A DNA stretch of 35,229 nucleotides, taken from positions 1 through 35,229 of the forward strand of contig BJGL01000017.1 of NCBI GenBank assembly GCA_014190475.1, in the 5' to 3' direction. Under the pieces are notes generated by a model. It worked only from the letters and a program-made list of their open reading frames with translations, had not been told where the DNA came from and ran no database searches. How positions within the stretch are numbered: the stretch's first letter is position 1; every line of letters begins with the position of its first letter. The translations under genes and the position numbers were made by a program. The stretch is from Bacteroidota bacterium. Lineage in GTDB: Bacteria > Bacteroidota > Bacteroidia > Chitinophagales > Chitinophagaceae. This document shows positions 22,757 to 32,430 of the stretch, in pieces.

Positions 22757-24472
22757 TTAAAATCCTGCTACGCTATCGTCGCCTCTCTTGTCGGCTATTA
22801 CCTCTAATTTTCCGTCCGGTAAAACACGAATCAGTTCGGTGCGCCCAATTCCGCTTCTTTCTTTTCCTAGCGGATACCCCATCGCTTTCATTTTTGTTTT
22901 CACCTCTTCAGGAAAGCCTTTCTCTGTTACTAATTCGTCCGGCAGCCATTGGTGATGAAATTTTGGTTTATACACCGCGTCCTCAGCAGAAAGATCAAAT
23001 TCCAGCAAATTGATCAGCGTTTGAAATACTTGATTAGGAATGGTGGTACCACCCGGTGTTCCAACCACGATATAGGGTTTTCCATTTTTTGTAACCAAGG
23101 TTGGGGTCATTGAGCTCAACATTCGTTTACCAGGTTGTATTGAATTTGCTTCTCCTCCAAGTGCTCCATACATATTAGGTACGCCGGGACGAACACTAAA
23201 ATCGTCCATTTCGTCATTGATGAAAAAGCCAGCTCCCCCAATTACAGTTCTGCTACCATAGGAGTTGTTTAAGGTGGTCGTTACCGCCACTGCGTTACCT
23301 TCCTGATCAAGCACACTTAGGTGGGTAGTTTCTTCACTTTCTTTGGGAAGTGGTTTACCTGGATTTATTTGCTTACTGTCTGTTGCTTTTTGTGGATCAT
23401 AATCCTTCATTCGCATTTTAATGTACCCTGGAGTTACCAGCTCTCTTGCTGGTACAGGATAAAAGTCGGCATCTCCCATATACTCGGCACGATCTGCGTA
23501 TGCCCTTCGCATCACCTCTGTCATGAGTTGAACGGAGGCCAGCGAATGGAAACCCATTGATTTTAGATTTTTATCCTCTACCATCTTCATCATTTGGTTA
23601 AGCAATAGACCTCCACTGCTGGGCATGGGCATACTCACGATTACAACATCTTTATAGGTAAACCGATGAGGTGTACGGGATACTGCTTCATATTTTTTTA
23701 AATCTTCCAAGGTGATGATCCCTTTTCCTCGATTCATTTCCTCTACAATAAATTGGGCTGTTTCTCCCTCATAAAATCCCGCTTTCCCTTTTGCTTTAAT
23801 TCTTTTTAAAGTAGCGGCTAGTTGTGGCTGTCGCAACGTATCCCCCTCTTTCCATCCCTGTTCTTTTACAAAAACAGGAGTTTGGGTATTATACTTTTTT
23901 AAGTCCGCCTGAATGGCGTTCAGTCCACGGGCCTCTGCCGCTGTAATGCTAAATCCAAATTCTGCCAACTCAATGGCTGGATTGATTAGTCTTTCAAAGG
24001 GGAGTTTGGCGTAGGGGTAACTGGCGAATAGTCCTGCCACAGTACCGGGTACTCCTGCAGCAAGATGTCCCAATTGACTTTTTTCTGTATTAGCTTCTCC
24101 ATTACTTTCAATATAAAGGTCTCTGTGCGCTGCAGCAGGCGCTTTTTCTCTGTAATCTATGGCTACCTGTTTTCCATTACTTAACTGACCTACCAAAAAC
24201 CCGCCGCCTCCCAGATTCCCTGCGTTTGGATATACCACGGCCAATGCCAGCTGCGTGGCGATGGCTGCATCAAATGCATTTCCACCTTGTTTTAAGATAG
24301 CAGCCCCGACCATGCTCGCCAATGGGTGTGCCGATGCAACAGCACCTTTAGCGGCAATTAATTTCTTTTCAATTTTATAGGCAAAGGGGTTAATACCAGT
24401 CTGCTGTAGCGTTTGACCTATACTGGCAACCCAACTCAGAATTGCAATGTAGAAAAGGGATTGTTTTTTCAT
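22757..24472 (-). CDS. ggt: Gamma-glutamyltransferase (exported)
   Basis: N-terminal-nucleophile hydrolase that splits gamma-glutamyl bonds, for example of glutathione, or transfers the glutamyl group to peptides or water. The 571-residue precursor has a signal peptide (first 20 residues, ending near SIGQ). It keeps the substrate Arg108 in IDYREKAP, oxyanion and Gly-rich segments GGNAFDAAIATQLALAVVYPN and NLGGGGFL, and the self-cleavage site before Thr382 in EETTHLSVLD, which becomes the nucleophile of the small subunit. MDDFSVRPGVPN, the lower-motif SSMTPT and TPGGTTIPNQ complete the active site. The KFHHQWLPDELVTEKGF segment is strongly family-like. It is divergent from the peptidase/deacetylase/transporter operon, with 69 bp between the starts. 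Confidence 0.95.
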   Translation of the reverse strand: MKKQSLFYIAILSWVASIGQTLQQTGINPFAYKIEKKLIAAKGAVASAHPLASMVGAAILKQGGNAFDAAIATQLALAVVYPNAGNLGGGGFLVGQLSNGKQVAIDYREKAPAAAHRDLYIESNGEANTEKSQLGHLAAGVPGTVAGLFASYPYAKLPFERLINPAIELAEFGFSITAAEARGLNAIQADLKKYNTQTPVFVKEQGWKEGDTLRQPQLAATLKRIKAKGKAGFYEGETAQFIVEEMNRGKGIITLEDLKKYEAVSRTPHRFTYKDVVIVSMPMPSSGGLLLNQMMKMVEDKNLKSMGFHSLASVQLMTEVMRRAYADRAEYMGDADFYPVPARELVTPGYIKMRMKDYDPQKATDSKQINPGKPLPKESEETTHLSVLDQEGNAVAVTTTLNNSYGSRTVIGGAGFFINDEMDDFSVRPGVPNMYGALGGEANSIQPGKRMLSSMTPTLVTKNGKPYIVVGTPGGTTIPNQVFQTLINLLEFDLSAEDAVYKPKFHHQWLPDELVTEKGFPEEVKTKMKAMGYPLGKERSGIGRTELIRVLPDGKLEVIADKRGDDSVAGF

Positions 24473-24541: not shown

Positions 24542-27049
24542 ATGAAAAGGTATTTTCTTTTTTTGGTCTTGCTGCAGCTCCTTTTTGTTGGGGTTCATGC
24601 GCAATTAAAATCACCCTCTGATTTTTTAGGCTACCCATTGGGGAGCAGACATACGCCGCATCATTTAGTACAACGTTATATGGAATATGTTGCTACTAAA
24701 AAGTCTGATCAGGTGGAGTTGAGAGAATATGGCCGTACACAGGAAGGCAGGCCCTTGCTTTTTTTGGCAATTTCATCAGCCAATAATCTGAACCGATTGG
24801 AAGATATTAGAAAAGCAAATCTGGCAATTGCCAATGGATTTTTGACAGGAGGGGCAGCGCAGTTTAAAGCATTACCTGCCATTGTATGGTTAAGTTATAA
24901 CGTACATGGAAATGAAGCTTCTTCTACTGAAGCGGCTATGCTTACTATCTATGAGTTATTGCGTGAGGGATCCGATTGTGCTGCGTGGCTTAACAATACA
25001 GTTGTTTTGATTGATCCATGTTTGAATCCAGATGGGAGAGATCGTTATGTAAACTGGTATCAATCTGTTGTTGGGAAAAAGTTTAATCCTAACCCATTGT
25101 CGCGCGAACATCAGGAGCCCTGGCCCGGAGGACGTTCAAACCACTATTATTTTGATTTGAACAGAGACTGGGCTTGGTTGACACAACTAGAAAGTCAACA
25201 GCGAATCAAGCTCTATCGAAGCTGGATGCCACATGTACATGTGGACTTGCATGAGCAAGGTTATAATGAACCTTATTATTTTGCTCCTGCTGCAGAACCA
25301 TATCACGAGATTATCACACCCTGGCAGCGAAAGTTTCAGCAGGATATAGGGGCCAATCATGCTCGTTATTTCGACCAAAATGGTTGGCTGTATTTTACAC
25401 GCGAACGGTTTGATTTACTCTATCCTTCCTATGGGGATACCTATCCTGTTTACAATGGTTCAATAGGAATGACCTATGAGCAAGGTGGAATCAGGGCAGG
25501 TTTAGGTATTGTAAATGAGGATGGCGACACGCTGACTCTATACGCAAGACTAATACACCATGTTACCACTTCGCTGAGTACAATTGAAGTAAGTGCTCGT
25601 CAGCAACAAAAGCTTATTCAAGAGTTTGCGGCTTTCTTTGAAAATGCGCGTAATAAAGGGATGGGCAGCTTTAAATCATTTGTTATTAAAGCCGATACTC
25701 GTCGGGAAGCCTATTTGCAAAAATTACTAACACTATTGGATGCGCACGGTATTGAGTATAAAACCGGAACTAATACTTCAGCCAAAGGGTATAATTATGC
25801 TACAACAAAGGAGGAAGTATTTTCAATTTCCTCTTCTGATATTGTAATTAATGCTGCACAGACTAATGGGGCATTAGTACAAGTATTATTTGAACCCCGA
25901 ACACAGTTAGTAGATTCCGCTACATATGATATCACAGCCTGGTCCTTGCCATATGCGTATGGGTTACAAGCCTATGCTACCAAGGAGAAAGTTGCGCAGG
26001 GAGCCAGCTGGAAGCCTACCACTGCGACTATTTCAAGTACTACATATGGCTATGCATTGCCATGGAACAGTCCTGCTGCTGCTACATTTGCAGCTCGATT
26101 ACTTCAGGCTGGCGTCAAACTTCGATATGCAGAAGATAGCTTCTTCACCGAAGGAAAAAAATTTGATCCAGGTACTATATTAATCTTAAAAACCTCCAAT
26201 GAAAGCTGGGGTAACCAGCTCTTTGATAAAGTGGTAACCTGGGCCAATGAACAAGCCGTGAACTTAGTTCCGCTTTCCTCCGGACTTGTTCAACAAGGTG
26301 CTGATTTTGGCAGCGATAAAGTACACCCGCTTAGCGCACCGCGCGTTGCACTTTTAAGTGGCGAAGGAACTTACAGTCTTAGCGTGGGCGAAGTTTGGCA
26401 TTTTTTTGAGCAACAATTAAATTATCCGATTACGTTATTGAACGTAAATTCTTTTTCAAGTGCTGATCTTGCTGCATTTGATGTACTAGTATTAGCCGAG
26501 GGGCGTTATCGGTTTTTGGAGAATAAGGATTCTTTTGAGGGAGTTCAAAAATGGATCCAGGGTGGTGGACGTTTGATTTTACTTGGAGAAACTACGAGGC
26601 AGCTCACAAAATTGGATTTAGGGTTGGTGCTTCGCAAAGAAGAGGATGCCGCAGAGAAAAATGGTTCACCAGTTTTATTTAAGAATAGGGAGCGGGACCA
26701 ACTTAGTGCAATCACAACGGGTTCCATTTGGCGTGTATCGCTTGACGCTTCTCATCCGCTAGCATTTGGTTATCCAGGTTTCTATTATTCATTAAAAACA
26801 GATGCTACTATTTTCGAATCCTTGAAAGAAGATAAGGGTTGGAATGTAGGGCAAACCCAACAGGAAGGGCCCTTAGCAGGTTTTGTGGGTAGCCGTCTTC
26901 AACCAAAATTAAATGGGGGGCTGGTAATAGGTCAGCTGCCTGTAGGCCGAGGAAATATTAGCTTTTTTGCAGACAATATTCTGTTTCGCAATTTCTGGGA
27001 AAATGGAAAGCTACTTTTTTGTAACGCTTTATTTTTTAATGCACGATGA
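24542..27049 (+). CDS. Exported M14-family zinc carboxypeptidase with C-terminal GATase-like domain
   Basis: An 835-residue secreted metallopeptidase. A signal peptide (residues 1-20, ending GVHA) precedes an M14 catalytic domain. The zinc ligands are His122 and Glu125 in YNVHGNEASSTEA and a later His around 237 in HVDLHEQG. The substrate-binding motifs NPDGRDRY (162-169) and DLNRDW (205-210) are also present. After about residue 360 come mixed regions and, at about 600-720, a Rossmann-like segment (PRVALLSGEGTYS, then FDVLVLAEG and IQGGGRLILLGE) resembling a glutamine-amidotransferase/ThuA-type domain without visible catalytic residues. The C-terminus ends in a small beta domain. M14 enzymes of this type can cut peptides or peptidoglycan stems; the substrate here is unknown. 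Its stop overlaps the next ATG by ATGA. Confidence 0.88.
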   Translation: MKRYFLFLVLLQLLFVGVHAQLKSPSDFLGYPLGSRHTPHHLVQRYMEYVATKKSDQVELREYGRTQEGRPLLFLAISSANNLNRLEDIRKANLAIANGFLTGGAAQFKALPAIVWLSYNVHGNEASSTEAAMLTIYELLREGSDCAAWLNNTVVLIDPCLNPDGRDRYVNWYQSVVGKKFNPNPLSREHQEPWPGGRSNHYYFDLNRDWAWLTQLESQQRIKLYRSWMPHVHVDLHEQGYNEPYYFAPAAEPYHEIITPWQRKFQQDIGANHARYFDQNGWLYFTRERFDLLYPSYGDTYPVYNGSIGMTYEQGGIRAGLGIVNEDGDTLTLYARLIHHVTTSLSTIEVSARQQQKLIQEFAAFFENARNKGMGSFKSFVIKADTRREAYLQKLLTLLDAHGIEYKTGTNTSAKGYNYATTKEEVFSISSSDIVINAAQTNGALVQVLFEPRTQLVDSATYDITAWSLPYAYGLQAYATKEKVAQGASWKPTTATISSTTYGYALPWNSPAAATFAARLLQAGVKLRYAEDSFFTEGKKFDPGTILILKTSNESWGNQLFDKVVTWANEQAVNLVPLSSGLVQQGADFGSDKVHPLSAPRVALLSGEGTYSLSVGEVWHFFEQQLNYPITLLNVNSFSSADLAAFDVLVLAEGRYRFLENKDSFEGVQKWIQGGGRLILLGETTRQLTKLDLGLVLRKEEDAAEKNGSPVLFKNRERDQLSAITTGSIWRVSLDASHPLAFGYPGFYYSLKTDATIFESLKEDKGWNVGQTQQEGPLAGFVGSRLQPKLNGGLVIGQLPVGRGNISFFADNILFRNFWENGKLLFCNALFFNAR

Positions 27050-29514
27050 GATTAAATAAGCTTTTGTTTTTTTTATTAATTGGGCTGCAACAGTCCTTTG
27101 CTCAACCTACTGTTTCTTCCATCTATCATGGAATAAAAAAGTTGGGTGTAACAGGAACTGTGCTTTATATCGCTGCACATCCTGACGATGAAAATACCCG
27201 ATTGATTACATATCTCGCTAATGACAGACTGCTTCGAACAGGCTATCTGTCCTTGACAAGAGGTGATGGTGGCCAGAACTTAATTGGTCAGGAGCAGGGA
27301 ATTGAGTTAGGGCTGATTCGGACGCAAGAATTACTAGCGGCTCGCCGAGTTGATGGCGGTGAGCAATTCTTTACCAGGGCTTATGATTTTGGATATTCCA
27401 AAACACCTACTGAAACATTCAAGATTTGGGATCGCGAAAAGATTTTGCATGATGTGGTATGGGTAATTCGAACATTTAAGCCCGATGTAGTGATAACGCG
27501 ATTTCCAACTACCGGTGAGGGGGGGCATGGACATCATACGGCCTCTGCTATTCTTGCTGGTGAGGCTGTTAAGGCTGCTGCTGATCCCACTCGTTTTCCG
27601 GAGCAATTAGCCCTCACAGGGGGAGCTTGGCGTGTGAAGCGTTTATTTTGGAACACCTTCAATTTTGGAGGTAATTCAACTATTCGAGAGGATCAACTTA
27701 AGATTGATGTGGGGGGTTATAATAGCTTGTTAGGAAAAAGCTATGGCGAAATTGCTGCACAGAGTCGTAGCCAACACAAAAGCCAAGGTTTTGGTGTTCC
27801 TGTTTCAAGAGGGGAGGCTTTTGAGTATTTTAAACTAATTGATGGGGCCTCCGCTTCTAAAGACATTATGGAAGGTATTTCACTTGACTGGGGCGCTAGG
27901 CTGGGTTCTTCTATCATCCAGCAGCAAATTGATAGCCTTTTACTTCATTTTAATTGGCTCGATCCTAAAGCGTCTTTACCTGGTTTACTAAACTTGTATC
28001 AATCACTTGAGAAGCTTGAGCCAACTTCAATCGTTACACATAAAAAGAAAGAACTGAAAGAACTCATTTTGGCGGTTAGTGGAATTTACCTGGAAGCCAC
28101 TTCCTCACAGCTACGTGCTGTGCAGGGTGATTCTGTACAGGTTGCCTTATTGGCTATTGATCGCCTTGGAACTTCTGTCACCTTGGAAAGAGCACAAGTG
28201 GGCGAATTCAATGTAGTAAATACCGCTACAGCGCTAAAACTAAATAAGCCCTTCACGGTCAACACAAAATTCCTGGTTCGTCCTAGTTTCCCAATTTCCC
28301 AGCCCTATTGGTTACAGCTTCCTATGCAACAAGGGTATTTTGTAGTCAATGACCTCTACTTGATTGGTAAGCCCGAGAATGAAGCTCCACTCTCCTGTAC
28401 TATTGATTTAAAATGGGGGACTCAAGTAATTTCTTACCAAGTGCCGGTACGTTATAAGTTTACGGATCCTGTAAAAGGCGAACTGCAATGGCCCTTGGAG
28501 GTTGTTCCGCCAGTTTCTATTCAACCCGATGAGTTGGTGCATCTAATTACTGCCGCTAATAATCCAATTAAGGGGCATGCGCAAGTAGCCGGAATGTCAG
28601 CCCAAACAAATTTGAAACCGGAGTTGATTTCGAACAAAAAAACAAAGAGCAGGGTAGATCCGCTACTCATCAGTTCACTACAAAAAGATCAGCTTGAAAG
28701 TTTTGATTATTTCCTGACTCCCAAAGAAAATGCGGATACTGTTACGCTGGGTGTTTCTCTTTCTAATGGAAATCGTGTTAATACAACTACTACTGTAATT
28801 CGGTATGATCATATTCCACCTATCACTTATTTTAAAACAGCGTCAGTATACACGCGTAATTTTCAAGTAAAGATTGCAGGGAAAAATATTGGCTATATAC
28901 CAGGTGCTGGAGACAAGATCCCCGACGGATTAAAGCGGCTTGGTTATAACATCACCGTGCTTGATGAAAATCTTTTGTCAACCATATCGCTTCAACAGTT
29001 CGATGCTATAATTACTGGCGTGAGAGCACATAATACACAAGAATGGCTCAATAAATATCATGAAAAATTGATGGCTTATGTCGAGCAAGGAGGAAATTAT
29101 CTGGTGCAGTATAACACCAGTAATCAAATAGGTCCTGTCAAAGCTAAAATTGGACCTTATCCCTTTGCAATTACACGAAATCGAATCACGGACCAGGATG
29201 CGGCTGTTGTATTTTTAGATCCTACACATCCTGTCTTCAATTTTCCAAATCGTATCCTTCCTCAGGATTTTGAGGGATGGATACAAGAGCGAAGTATCTA
29301 TCATGGCTTAGACACGGCGGGAAAGCTTCAGCCCTTACTTAGCATGGCGGATCCGGATGAAAAACCAGATACCGGCTCTTTATTGGTGGCTCGTTATGGA
29401 AAAGGATGGTTTACGTACACAGGACTTTCGTTATTTAGACAAATACCAGCAGGTGTTCCGGGAGCTTATCGCTTATTGGCAAATCTGTTGGCACTAGGAA
29501 ATGTTGAAAGGTAG
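27046..29514 (+). CDS. Exported PIG-L (LmbE-like) deacetylase with C-terminal GATase-like domain
   Basis: An 822-residue secreted protein. A signal peptide (1-19, ending SFA) precedes a PIG-L/LmbE zinc deacetylase domain with AHPDDEN (His45, Asp47-Asp48) and GHGHHTAS (His161-His164), the usual metal-binding pair. Family members remove acetyl groups from N-acetylglucosamine derivatives (MshB, BshB, GPI synthesis) or from chito-oligosaccharides. The remaining 600 residues contain beta-rich modules and, at about 610-820, a Rossmann-like segment (IGYIPGAGDKIPDGL, FDAIITGVRAHN, YVEQGGNYLVQYN) that resembles the end of the neighbouring M14 peptidase. It is coupled to the peptidase by a 4-bp ATGA overlap and is 3 bp from the next small gene. 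The substrate is not deducible. Confidence 0.9.
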   Translation: MRLNKLLFFLLIGLQQSFAQPTVSSIYHGIKKLGVTGTVLYIAAHPDDENTRLITYLANDRLLRTGYLSLTRGDGGQNLIGQEQGIELGLIRTQELLAARRVDGGEQFFTRAYDFGYSKTPTETFKIWDREKILHDVVWVIRTFKPDVVITRFPTTGEGGHGHHTASAILAGEAVKAAADPTRFPEQLALTGGAWRVKRLFWNTFNFGGNSTIREDQLKIDVGGYNSLLGKSYGEIAAQSRSQHKSQGFGVPVSRGEAFEYFKLIDGASASKDIMEGISLDWGARLGSSIIQQQIDSLLLHFNWLDPKASLPGLLNLYQSLEKLEPTSIVTHKKKELKELILAVSGIYLEATSSQLRAVQGDSVQVALLAIDRLGTSVTLERAQVGEFNVVNTATALKLNKPFTVNTKFLVRPSFPISQPYWLQLPMQQGYFVVNDLYLIGKPENEAPLSCTIDLKWGTQVISYQVPVRYKFTDPVKGELQWPLEVVPPVSIQPDELVHLITAANNPIKGHAQVAGMSAQTNLKPELISNKKTKSRVDPLLISSLQKDQLESFDYFLTPKENADTVTLGVSLSNGNRVNTTTTVIRYDHIPPITYFKTASVYTRNFQVKIAGKNIGYIPGAGDKIPDGLKRLGYNITVLDENLLSTISLQQFDAIITGVRAHNTQEWLNKYHEKLMAYVEQGGNYLVQYNTSNQIGPVKAKIGPYPFAITRNRITDQDAAVVFLDPTHPVFNFPNRILPQDFEGWIQERSIYHGLDTAGKLQPLLSMADPDEKPDTGSLLVARYGKGWFTYTGLSLFRQIPAGVPGAYRLLANLLALGNVER

Positions 29515-29517
29515 ACC

Positions 29518-29694
29518 ATGAGTAATTATCAAAAGCAAAGAGCTGATTGGACTTTTGGTTTAGCCATTATAATGGGTTTGGCACTAGGAATCTTCATAAA
29601 GCGAGTAAAAGTAGGACTGATTATTGGCATTGTGATGGGAGGATTAATCCTATTAGCGGGGTGGTTACGTCAAAAAAGAAATCGAAATGCCTGA
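29518..29694 (+). CDS. Small two-helix membrane protein (58 aa), unknown function
   Basis: A 58-codon reading frame placed 3 bp after the PIG-L stop and running 8 bp into the next small gene. It begins MSNYQKQRADW and has two hydrophobic stretches (WTFGLAIIMGLALGIFI and VGLIIGIVMGGLILLAGWL) split by the basic turn KRVK, and it ends in the basic tail RQKRNRNA. This pattern fits a hairpin inner-membrane protein with the loop and C-terminus toward the cytoplasm, although topology is inferred. Several GxxxG-like Gly spacings suggest helix packing. I do not recognise the family. Its position in a chain of overlapping genes between a deacetylase and a symporter argues that it is real and works with them, perhaps as an accessory transporter subunit. 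Confidence 0.72.
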   Translation: MSNYQKQRADWTFGLAIIMGLALGIFIKRVKVGLIIGIVMGGLILLAGWLRQKRNRNA

Positions 29695-29812
29695 TACACC
29701 AGACAATAAACCACCTTTCTTCAGCAGTTGGGATGCCTGGTATGGGGTCCTGATTATTTACTTACTTGTACTTATTTTTTTGTTTTACAAGTTGACAAAG
29801 CATTTTCAATGA
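29687..29812 (+). CDS. Micro membrane protein (41 aa), candidate symporter accessory subunit
   Basis: A 41-codon gene with start 29687 and stop 29810-29812. It overlaps the previous gene by 8 bp, and the symporter start overlaps it by 4 bp (ATGA). The sequence has a polar, Pro-rich head (MPDTPDNKPPFFSSWDAWYG), a single transmembrane helix (VLIIYLLVLIFLFY) and the tail KLTKHFQ. The aromatic SSWDAWY entry into the membrane and the FY-x2-T exit look like deliberate interface features. Small partner subunits are known for several sodium:solute symporters (for example YhdT with PanF). Whether this belongs to any named family I cannot say. Translational coupling to the symporter is the main evidence. 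Confidence 0.74.
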   Translation: MPDTPDNKPPFFSSWDAWYGVLIIYLLVLIFLFYKLTKHFQ

Positions 29813-31554
29813 GCAGACTAGATTGGGGCGTGCTTATTACAACCTTAGTGGGTATTATTCTGTATGGGTTATACAAGAGTCGAACCACTCGCGATCTAGA
29901 CGGTTATTTTCGTTCCAATCGTAATCTGGGTTGGGGACTTGTACTGCTAAGCATCATGGGAACACAGGCTAGCGCCATTACTTTTTTATCCGCGCCTGGG
30001 CAGGCCTATACAGATGGAATGCGGTTTGTTCAGTATTATTTTGGTTTGCCCATTGCCATGATTGTAATTGCTATATTTTTTATCCCTGTTTTTCAGCGAT
30101 TGCAAGTTTATACGGCGTACGAGTATCTAGAAAGTAGATTTGATGGTAAAACTCGGTCCTTAACATCTTTTCTATTTTTATTGCAACGTGGTCTTTCCAC
30201 GGGTATAAGTGTATTTGCTCCTTCGCTTATTCTTTCCTCATTATTAGGCTGGAGTTTAACATCCACTAGTGTAATTATGGGTGGATTATTGATTATTTAC
30301 ACCTTATTTGGGGGAGCTAGAGCCGTTGCTTACACACAACAATTACAATTGGGAATCATCTTTGCCGGTTTATTCTTAGCGGGGTGGATGGTAGTTCGCT
30401 TATTGCCTCCTGAAGTTGGATTGGCTGATGCCTTGCGGATTGGGGGAAAGCTGGGTAAGTTTTCAATCATAACCACGGGCTTTAAGGAAGGTCGTTTTGA
30501 TTGGAGTGATCAATATAATATTTGGAGTGGATTGGTGGGTGGTTTCTTTCTTGCCTTATCCTATTTCGGTACGGACCAAAGCCAGGTAGGTCGTTATTTA
30601 ACTGCACGATCAGCCAGAGAGAGTAAGTTGGGCTTGCTTATGAATGGCTTTGTGAAAGTTCCCATGCAGTTTTTGATTTTATTGTTAGGCGTCCTTGTTT
30701 TTTCATTTTACCAATTTACAAAGGCGCCAATTTTCTTTAATGAGGTGCAATTAGCGAAGATCAGACAGCATCCTGTTTATGCGGACTCGCTGGAACAGGC
30801 ACAAGCTCATTTTGATCAATTGTCTGTTGACAAAAAGCGATTATTGACTGCTTATACGGCCTTGAAAGGGGATAGTGAAGCAAACCGGTTAGCGCAAGAT
30901 TCAATGCTGGAGAAATATCGGTCGGTGCATGCTGAATCAGAGATAATTCGTAATCGATTGAAGTTTTGGCTCAATAAAAAAATTGTAGGAGGGGATGGGA
31001 ATGATACCAATTATATATTTCTTCGGTTTGTGGTGGATCATCTGCCCGCTGGTCTAGTGGGCCTTTTGATTGCTATTATTTTTTTAGCATCATGGGGAAG
31101 TATTGCCGCCGCCATTAATTCGCTTGCTGCCGCCACGATGATCGACTTTCATCGTCGCTATAGTAAAAAATCAATTACTGATGAGTCGGAATTCCGATGG
31201 TCTCGTTGGTATACACTTGCTTGGGGTATCTTTTGTATTGTAGTTGCACTCTTTACGTACAATATTGGAAATAGCTTAATTGAGGCTGTGAATGTGTTGG
31301 GCTCACTTTTCTATGGTGTAGTACTAGGCATTTTTTGTGTTGCTTTATTTCTACCCAAGATTAAGAGCGGTAACTTAGTTTTTTGGGCTGCTCTAGTAGC
31401 CGAAGTTTTAGTCATTCTTGTTTTCTATTTGAGTAAGACGGGATACATAAAACTTGGTTTTCTTTGGCTCAATCCTTTGGGCGTTTTTGCAGTCATACTA
31501 TTTTCGCTAATTGGTCAATACGGTGTATCACTCAAGCGGAGTTTTCTGCAATAA
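29809..31554 (+). CDS. Sodium:solute symporter family transporter
   Basis: A 581-residue inner-membrane secondary transporter of the SSS family (LeuT fold). The N-terminal marks are residues 27-62 (RDLDGYFRSNRNLGWG, then GTQASAITFLSAPG, the unwound first core helix) and LLIIYTLFGGARAVAYTQQLQ (161-180), the SSS signature. WGSIAAAINSLAAATMIDF (429-447) carries the Ser/Ala-rich Na+-binding helix. Between residues about 303 and 405 there is a hydrophilic, partly coiled insertion of about 100 residues that splits two membrane segments. I start at 29809 (MSRLDWGV), which overlaps the preceding gene as ATGA; the in-frame extension back to 29728 is antisense to nothing but covers the micro-gene in another frame. 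The substrate is unknown: sugars, amino sugars, amino acids or acids are all possible. Confidence 0.9.
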   Translation: MSRLDWGVLITTLVGIILYGLYKSRTTRDLDGYFRSNRNLGWGLVLLSIMGTQASAITFLSAPGQAYTDGMRFVQYYFGLPIAMIVIAIFFIPVFQRLQVYTAYEYLESRFDGKTRSLTSFLFLLQRGLSTGISVFAPSLILSSLLGWSLTSTSVIMGGLLIIYTLFGGARAVAYTQQLQLGIIFAGLFLAGWMVVRLLPPEVGLADALRIGGKLGKFSIITTGFKEGRFDWSDQYNIWSGLVGGFFLALSYFGTDQSQVGRYLTARSARESKLGLLMNGFVKVPMQFLILLLGVLVFSFYQFTKAPIFFNEVQLAKIRQHPVYADSLEQAQAHFDQLSVDKKRLLTAYTALKGDSEANRLAQDSMLEKYRSVHAESEIIRNRLKFWLNKKIVGGDGNDTNYIFLRFVVDHLPAGLVGLLIAIIFLASWGSIAAAINSLAAATMIDFHRRYSKKSITDESEFRWSRWYTLAWGIFCIVVALFTYNIGNSLIEAVNVLGSLFYGVVLGIFCVALFLPKIKSGNLVFWAALVAEVLVILVFYLSKTGYIKLGFLWLNPLGVFAVILFSLIGQYGVSLKRSFLQ

Positions 31555-31599: not shown

Positions 31600-32430
31600 T
31601 TATTTTAGTTCAGCCAATAGCTTGTCGTTCAACTTCACATAATCCATATTCTTGGCAGCCAACGCTAGTTCCTTGGATTTTTGTGCCGATGCTTTTGCCT
31701 CTGCTTTCTTTCCAAGCTTTGCCTGGCAATTTGCTAATTGGTGAAGTACCCAGTAAGCAGTAGGAGTTGCCGTAGCGGCTTTCTCAAACCAGCTAAGTGC
31801 TTGATTTAAATCTTTTCCGTTATCCATGAAATACATGGCAGCGTTAAAATAGGGTGGTTTTTCTCCCTGCATAGCCGTATTGATCTGTTGCATGATGCGG
31901 GTATCAATGTCAGTATCAACAGTAAGGGCTACTTTAACCTGATCCCAGCTGAGTTCAATCTGGCATTGTGTTGGTTTGATATTATCCACTTGAATCATAA
32001 AATTCTCTGTACGATCGTTGGTTTTTGAAACCGGAACATTCACGCGAACTACATCCATTTCTTGTTTGTAAGCGGAGGGACTGGTTACATCTGTTTGCTT
32101 GGAGATGATCAATGTCCAACTGTCTTTATTCGGGATGCTCAATAGACCGTATTTGCCTGGAGCAAGTTTAACCCCACCTATTGTTACTTCGTCGCTGAAT
32201 TGCAGGGTAGTGGCGCTGTTGGCTCCGGTTCTCCATACATTACCATAGGGGACCAAATCGCCAAAAATTTTACGTCCTTTCATGGCAGGTCTGGAGTAGG
32301 CGATTTCAATACTACCCAAACCAAAATCTTGTTTAATAGTTTGTAAAGGACTTGGAGCCGGTGTACGCAGCTGTGCTTGGCTGGTCATGATACTTCCAAC
32401 CAAAAGGGCTGCCAACATAAATTTTTTCAT
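31600..32430 (-). CDS. Exported DUF2911-domain protein with TPR-like C-terminus
   Basis: A 276-residue exported protein. A signal peptide (MKKFMLAALLVGSIMTSQA) is followed by a DUF2911 domain (about 22-175), recognised by IEIAYSRPAMKGRKIFGDLVPYG, VWRTGANSATTLQFSDEV, GGVKLAPGKYGLLSIP and W-x-L-I-I. The family is frequent in Bacteroidota and of unknown function. The C-terminal 80 residues form two to three helices like tetratricopeptide repeats (ALSWFEKAATATPTAYWVLH, then LANCQAKLGKKAEAKASAQK), suggesting protein contacts. A perfect -7 element lies 21 bp upstream of the start, and the gene is single, with its own terminator. Assignment is confident; function is not. Confidence 0.85.
   Translation of the reverse strand: MKKFMLAALLVGSIMTSQAQLRTPAPSPLQTIKQDFGLGSIEIAYSRPAMKGRKIFGDLVPYGNVWRTGANSATTLQFSDEVTIGGVKLAPGKYGLLSIPNKDSWTLIISKQTDVTSPSAYKQEMDVVRVNVPVSKTNDRTENFMIQVDNIKPTQCQIELSWDQVKVALTVDTDIDTRIMQQINTAMQGEKPPYFNAAMYFMDNGKDLNQALSWFEKAATATPTAYWVLHQLANCQAKLGKKAEAKASAQKSKELALAAKNMDYVKLNDKLLAELK

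Follow-up and report, generated by a model that had tools for sequence, protein, structure and literature searches.

Between the stop codon of a PIG-L deacetylase gene (29514) and the ATG of an SSS symporter gene (29809), the contig studied here leaves a space of 294 nt that holds two small open reading frames, designated S1 and S2. The contig belongs to a 1.9-Mb genome of a Bacteroidota bacterium of the family Chitinophagaceae and was analysed over 35,229 nucleotides (hereafter, the window). The locus raises the question of whether frames of this size are genes and, if so, whether their products belong to the transporter encoded downstream. A preliminary description made from the DNA alone had placed the two frames between the deacetylase and the symporter, overlapping or abutting their neighbours, and its coordinates and description proved correct. 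We conclude that S2 is probably an accessory subunit of the SiaT-like SSS symporter encoded at 29809 (probability roughly 0.7). The features on which the argument depends are as follows.

24542..27049, + strand: M14 zinc carboxypeptidase, the leading gene of the likely operon.
27046..29514, + strand: PIG-L deacetylase of 822 aa, with an N-terminus that resembles a signal peptide as judged by eye.
29518..29694, + strand: S1, a 58-aa glycine-rich membrane protein with two helices as judged by eye, found almost exclusively in the family of the window genome.
29687..29812, + strand: S2, a 41-aa single-pass membrane protein, the proposed symporter subunit.
29809..31554, + strand: SSS symporter of 581 aa, matching TIGR00813 and SSF.
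29750..29755, + strand: S2 codons 22–23, covarying with symporter residue 85.
29792..29794, + strand: S2 codon 36, covarying with symporter residues 218 and 220.
30061..30063, + strand: symporter codon 85, within the helix of residues 79–98 in the AF2 model.
30460..30468, + strand: symporter codons 218–220, in the loop after the helix of residues 205–214 in the AF2 model, a loop predicted to be periplasmic.

The M14 and PIG-L genes share 4 nt, S1 starts 3 nt past the PIG-L stop, and S2 shares 8 nt with S1 and 4 nt (ATGA) with the symporter gene. Because all junctions from the M14 gene to the symporter gene overlap or comprise a few bases, the arrangement is operon-like. On the − strand, a gene whose product we take, from its translation, to be gamma-glutamyltranspeptidase-like (22757–24472) is directed away from the operon, and a DUF2911 gene (31600–32430), whose cluster was found at 12 of 21 compared loci, is convergent with the symporter gene. 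The closest named symporter records carry labels such as Chitinophagaceae, Sphingobacteriales and Bacteroidetes. Two loci in records titled Sphingomonadales (L146 and L152) match the gene set at 70–71% symporter identity, and their titles look wrong.

The preliminary description had treated both frames as genes, of a length that gene callers commonly miss, and comparison with related genomes confirmed that they are genes. The S1 frame was retained at every one of the 34 readable congener loci, and the S2 frame in 42 of the 44 symporter orthologues read first (40 found by regular expression and two, L034 and L036, by eye). The two orthologues without S2 were those of genome G017, which retains S1, and genome G041; three further loci (L046–L048) encode distant paralogues and have no S2. 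Both S1 and S2 are under purifying selection, whereas their shifted frames are not. Among five close genomes, dN/dS was 0.002–0.11 for S1, 0.06–0.25 for S2 and 0.03–0.06 for the symporter, the ranges covering those genome pairs, 8 out of 10, in which dS was unsaturated. The shifted-frame readings, made only for genome pairs of equal length, gave pN/pS values of 0.57–8.8 (undefined in two comparisons in which pS was zero) and contained 2–11 stops each. One might still suppose that S1 and S2 are open by chance, given that they are short, that the window S2 has no match in Pfam or NCBIfam and that the matches of S1 are all below threshold. This is hardly conceivable, however, in view of the dN/dS values, of the conservation both within the class and in further classes, and of six named genomes that each have exactly one S2, always at the symporter locus; the selection analysis already refutes the idea. 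The sequence evidence indicates that S1 and S2 are both genes.

The distribution of S2 was examined across the class and the phylum. At E ≤ 0.001, the S2 profile matched 112 of 295 class genomes (114 matches), and 104 of the 114 matches lay directly upstream of a symporter orthologue on the same strand; at E ≤ 0.01, the corresponding number was 109 of 128. A draw from the phylum yielded S2 matches in 43 of 158 genomes, 21 of them outside the class (counted by hand), and at the three loci outside the class that were read (L301, L302 and L304), a symporter gene and a PIG-L gene adjoin S2. The S2 gene is tied to one symporter subfamily throughout the class and is present in other classes of the phylum. 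For comparison at the level of single pairs, 289 loci with a readable symporter start were reduced to 265 with S2, to 215 with a symporter of more than 500 residues and to 200 distinct pairs, of which 157 have the 4-nt (ATGA) overlap between S2 and the symporter gene. The window S2 matched no model in Pfam or NCBIfam. Weak Pfam and NCBIfam matches of other S2 members were scattered and mutually inconsistent; the DUF3149 model (PF11346) matched 2 of 29 S2 members, with a best E of 2.4e-5, and did not match the window S2. Judging from these searches, the S2 proteins form a Bacteroidota family that is widespread and for which neither Pfam nor NCBIfam has a model.

The linkage has exceptions. Forty-one symporter matches in the class had no adjoining S2 profile match, and among the 31 of these loci that were fetched, a divergent S2 frame was found in 14 (E 6e-6 to 0.004) and none in 17. 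One of the 17 (L092) lies at the end of its contig, and another three (L093, L094 and L104) are from genomes in which S2 lies next to PIG-L elsewhere. The other 13 seem to be S2-less, among them two second copies (L118 and L119) and one locus with only 471 nt upstream (L120). Symporter orthologues without S2 occur in several lineages (e.g., in G017, G041, G067 and G112), and a search of nine genomes with such orthologues found no S2 elsewhere (best E 0.06). Given these orthologues and the result for the nine genomes, S2 is dispensable. Two loci are unusual in other ways: L089 (genome G181) is a single contig with two S2-like frames, one of them a partial match, and at about 1895–2332 of L091, a 145-aa frame, presumably of a REP-type transposase from its resemblance, occupies the place expected for S2 between PIG-L and the symporter gene.

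The S2 consensus is K-P/A-P-x-F-K-x-W-x-x-W-Y, followed by a helix and a C-terminal F-T-K-x-F. In the 200 pairs, conservation was highest at W15 (95%), Y19 (99%), L26 (88%), I30 (84%) and T37 (83%), and P10 was 90% conserved among the 72% of pairs having that column. Conservation along residues 19–40 was periodic with a peak at 100 degrees, as in an alpha helix (permutation p = 1e-4), and residues 20–36 alone gave p = 0.012. Such one-sided conservation is what is expected of a helix packed against a protein. The flanks of the helix differ in charge, with a mean of 2.00 Lys and Arg residues on the N-terminal side versus 0.75 on the C-terminal side; the number was higher on the N-terminal side in 151 of the 200 sequences, equal in 45 and lower in 4. 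From this bias, a topology with the N-terminus inside and the C-terminus outside is predicted for S2, and the same charge rule predicts that the N-terminus of the symporter is outside.

The symporter scored 203.7 bits against TIGR00813 (cut-off 184) and 107.9 bits against Pfam SSF (cut-off 22.8), and its closest solved relative by sequence is SiaT (5nv9, E 6.5e-40). A single-chain AF2 model (pTM 0.78) had SiaT, SMCT1, NIS and SGLT2 as its best Foldseek matches and thus an SSS-type fold; SiaT is the closest solved structure by fold as well, with a target-normalised TM-score of 0.86. Counted by hand from the AF2 helix list, the model has 13 membrane helices. A helical insert of about 95 residues (about 304–400; 30718–31008), which varies in length among relatives, breaks up the SSF domain match. 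Odd symporter matches in genome G002 trace back to a run of N. When a read-through chain carrying S2 (L155) was modelled with AF2, S2 was left unplaced with a pLDDT of 32–53; with two alignment rows that carry S2, this result is neither for nor against docking.

Covariation provided a further view of the relation between the two proteins. In a first model of 172 genomes, the strongest couplings between S2 and the symporter included 36–218, 22–85, 23–85 and 36–220 (S2 residue first). We also built a joint model of 172 genomes in which the C-terminal 430 residues of PIG-L (391 columns) served as an internal control. At lambda 0.2 in the joint model, the four couplings scored 15.7, 13.8, 12.3 and 9.4, respectively, against control maxima of 9.0 among 219,742 symporter–PIG-L pairs and 9.0 among 13,685 S2–PIG-L pairs; the strongest couplings within the symporter were 17.9 and 11.8. 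At lambda 0.05, the control maximum was 11.3, and of the S2–symporter couplings, only the two highest (14.4 and 12.7) exceeded it. None of 72 PIG-L windows of 35 columns reached the S2 maximum at either lambda. At the level of residues, symporter M218 occurs beside S2 F36 in 3 of 104 pairs and beside S2 I36 or L36 in 52 of 92. When the pairs were divided by divergence into three strata (96, 42 and 62 pairs), the 36–218 association was seen in each (Fisher p of 2e-7, 5e-8 and 3e-3, uncorrected for phylogeny).

Tests that take account of the tree were less uniform. In independent tree pairs, the changes at 36–218 ran in the same direction in a mean of 10.3 cases and in the opposite direction in 0.0 (median p 0.002), and 22–85 (p 0.22) and 22–35 (p 0.63) fell short of significance; the tested S2–symporter pairs were chosen from about 20,000, and these p values are uncorrected. 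This test discriminates weakly because 3 of 8 S2–PIG-L control pairs also had a median p below 0.05 (0.012, 0.031 and 0.039). A contrast scan over fixed tree pairs gave S2–symporter correlations without a clear excess over S2–PIG-L, and in a subset of 82 loci, the S2–symporter signal (9.0) was lower than the control maximum (11.3). Under the predicted topology, S2 residue 36 and symporter residues 218–220 would be on the outer side and S2 residues 22/23 and symporter residue 85 deeper, so that the pairs fit one docked helix, and the N-in/C-out topology of S2 fits the depth of both contact pairs. Taken together, we regard the covariation as good evidence, though short of conclusive, that S2 and the symporter are in contact.

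S2 also lies between the symporter gene and the PIG-L gene, and it might instead serve the deacetylase, say by anchoring it in the membrane or helping its secretion, with the symporter as a mere neighbour. PIG-L is indeed present in all 112 genomes with S2 at E ≤ 0.001, whereas the symporter is over threshold in 110; the remaining two, G280 and G340, show a symporter cut off at a contig end. S2 with PIG-L and without the symporter was found in eight cases, five of them contig ends, and the three genuine cases, in which the symporter is encoded elsewhere, are those of G165 and G256, which are of one genus, and G262 (S2 behind PIG-L at loci L081, L082 and L084). Conversely, in 26 cases, S2 accompanies the symporter with no PIG-L listed within 1.5 kb, and for 19 of these, as read from the individual rows, a PIG-L gene is listed on a different contig or at a long distance; the 19 omit G236, where the contig ends near by, and contig ends were checked for only part of them. 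Since 19 splits keep S2 with the symporter and 3 keep it with PIG-L, S2 tracks the symporter more than the deacetylase. In addition, S2–PIG-L couplings are no higher than those of symporter–PIG-L pairs, and the 4-nt overlap is with the symporter gene, whereas the distance between S2 and PIG-L ranges from −2 to 1396 nt. We therefore consider a role in the service of PIG-L improbable. Less probable still is that S2 acts as a coupling leader, in which the ATGA overlap sets symporter expression and the peptide itself does little. The frequency of that overlap among the distinct pairs would suit such a leader, but the low dN/dS, the one-sided helix, the near-invariant Trp and Tyr residues and the covariation all concern the peptide, and three genomes keep S2 apart from the symporter.

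The case of S1 is different. Its sequence is rich in glycines, which are near-invariant, and has a basic turn between two hydrophobic stretches. The S1 and S2 profiles are unlike each other (hhalign probability 12%), and the Tmemb_14 model (PF03647) gave 18.1 bits against S1, below its gathering cut-off of 24.8, and matched 1 of 16 S1 members. S1 could be a second subunit of the symporter complex that was gained in the family of the window genome; the shared likely operon, the purifying selection and the conserved glycines are in keeping with this, as is its occurrence at E ≤ 1e-3 in 83 of the 200 distinct pairs, of which 80 belong to the 96 nearest. In the class, however, S1 was found in only 8 of 295 genomes, with 5 strong matches, all within the family of the window genome; its top coupling to the symporter in the 82-locus subset, which has little power, was 9.3 against a control maximum of 11.3; and G017 retains S1 though S2 is gone. 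Membership of S1 in the complex thus appears unlikely, if less so than the two alternatives for S2, and the sequence data describe S1 as a separate, lineage-specific membrane protein with a putative role. Accordingly, the proposal in the preliminary description that one or both frames encode accessory subunits of the symporter holds in part: for S2, it is supported by class-wide linkage, the 4-nt overlap, the conserved helix face and covariation, and for S1, which is all but confined to the family of the window genome and whose covariation, at low power, is not above control, it is not supported.

The deacetylase is relevant to the function of the transporter. Among the 295 class genomes, 150 have the symporter and 159 have PIG-L; both are present in 149 of the 160 with either, and the two genes are often non-adjacent. 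Such near-perfect co-inheritance suggests one function, and the PIG-L deacetylase probably generates what the symporter imports. A bacillithiol link was considered as an explanation of the pair and rejected: BshC (TIGR03998) does not explain it, since it is present in 274 of 295 genomes and, among the matches listed, none lies within 30 kb of the symporter gene as judged by eye.

Returning to S2 as a subunit of the symporter, we envisage that it would be made just before the transporter by coupled translation and would insert into the inner membrane so that the N-terminus faces the cytoplasm and the C-terminus the periplasm. The conserved side of the S2 helix (Y19, V22, L26, I30, F33, T37 and F40) would then pack against the symporter, at a docking site that may lie near the helix containing symporter residue 85 and the outer loop containing residues 218–220. 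Once docked, S2 may stabilise the transporter or tune its activity, in the manner of MAP17 with human SGLT2. A broader proposal seems to us evenly balanced, namely that S2 represents a new family of single-helix subunits of about 40 residues and that this Bacteroidota SSS subfamily works as a two-protein complex, with a site other than that of MAP17 on SGLT2, importing a PIG-L product. If S2 is a subunit, a bacterial counterpart of MAP17 in 112 of 295 class genomes would offer a simple model for such partners, and expressing or studying the symporter without S2 would be ill-advised. The analysis also flags a transporter–deacetylase pair that is inherited almost as a unit.

YhdT with PanF and the DUF4212 and DUF485 proteins are tiny two-helix membrane proteins encoded beside SSS transporters, and the preliminary description had named them as analogues. 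In contrast to the two helices of these partners, S2 has one, and searches of 29 S2 and 16 S1 members found no match to the YhdT, DUF4212 or DUF485 (YjcH of ActP) models in Pfam or NCBIfam at E ≤ 0.1. Nor did the symporter score as PanF (42.6 bits versus the panF cut-off of 328.05). KdpF is a tiny single-helix member of a large membrane complex. CydX (37 aa) and AcrZ are likewise tiny proteins of one helix that associate with large membrane complexes; S2 is like them in size, whereas their partners, an oxidase and an RND pump, differ. The symporter itself is about 22% identical to SiaT (5nv9/5nva) in structural alignment and, unlike SiaT, carries the helical insert near residues 304–400. Among titles and abstracts in the open-licence literature, we found no earlier work on this topic. 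To our knowledge, MAP17 with human SGLT1/2 is the main known case of a small single-helix partner of SSS transporters. The orientation of MAP17 is opposite to the N-in orientation predicted for S2. MAP17 (PDZK1IP1) has been described as an auxiliary subunit essential to human SGLT2, with a lone helix that touches TM13 of the transporter (PMC10803289). Like MAP17, S2 is small and single-pass, and its proposed partner is of the SSS/SLC5 type. Compared with SGLT2, the window symporter seems to be without an equivalent of TM13, going by the hand count of helices, and the covariation of S2 falls instead at symporter residues 85 and 218–220. With respect to what marks a MAP17-type partner, a single helix that touches an SSS transporter, S2 has one helix, one conserved face and covariation with its symporter, and AF2 left its position unplaced.
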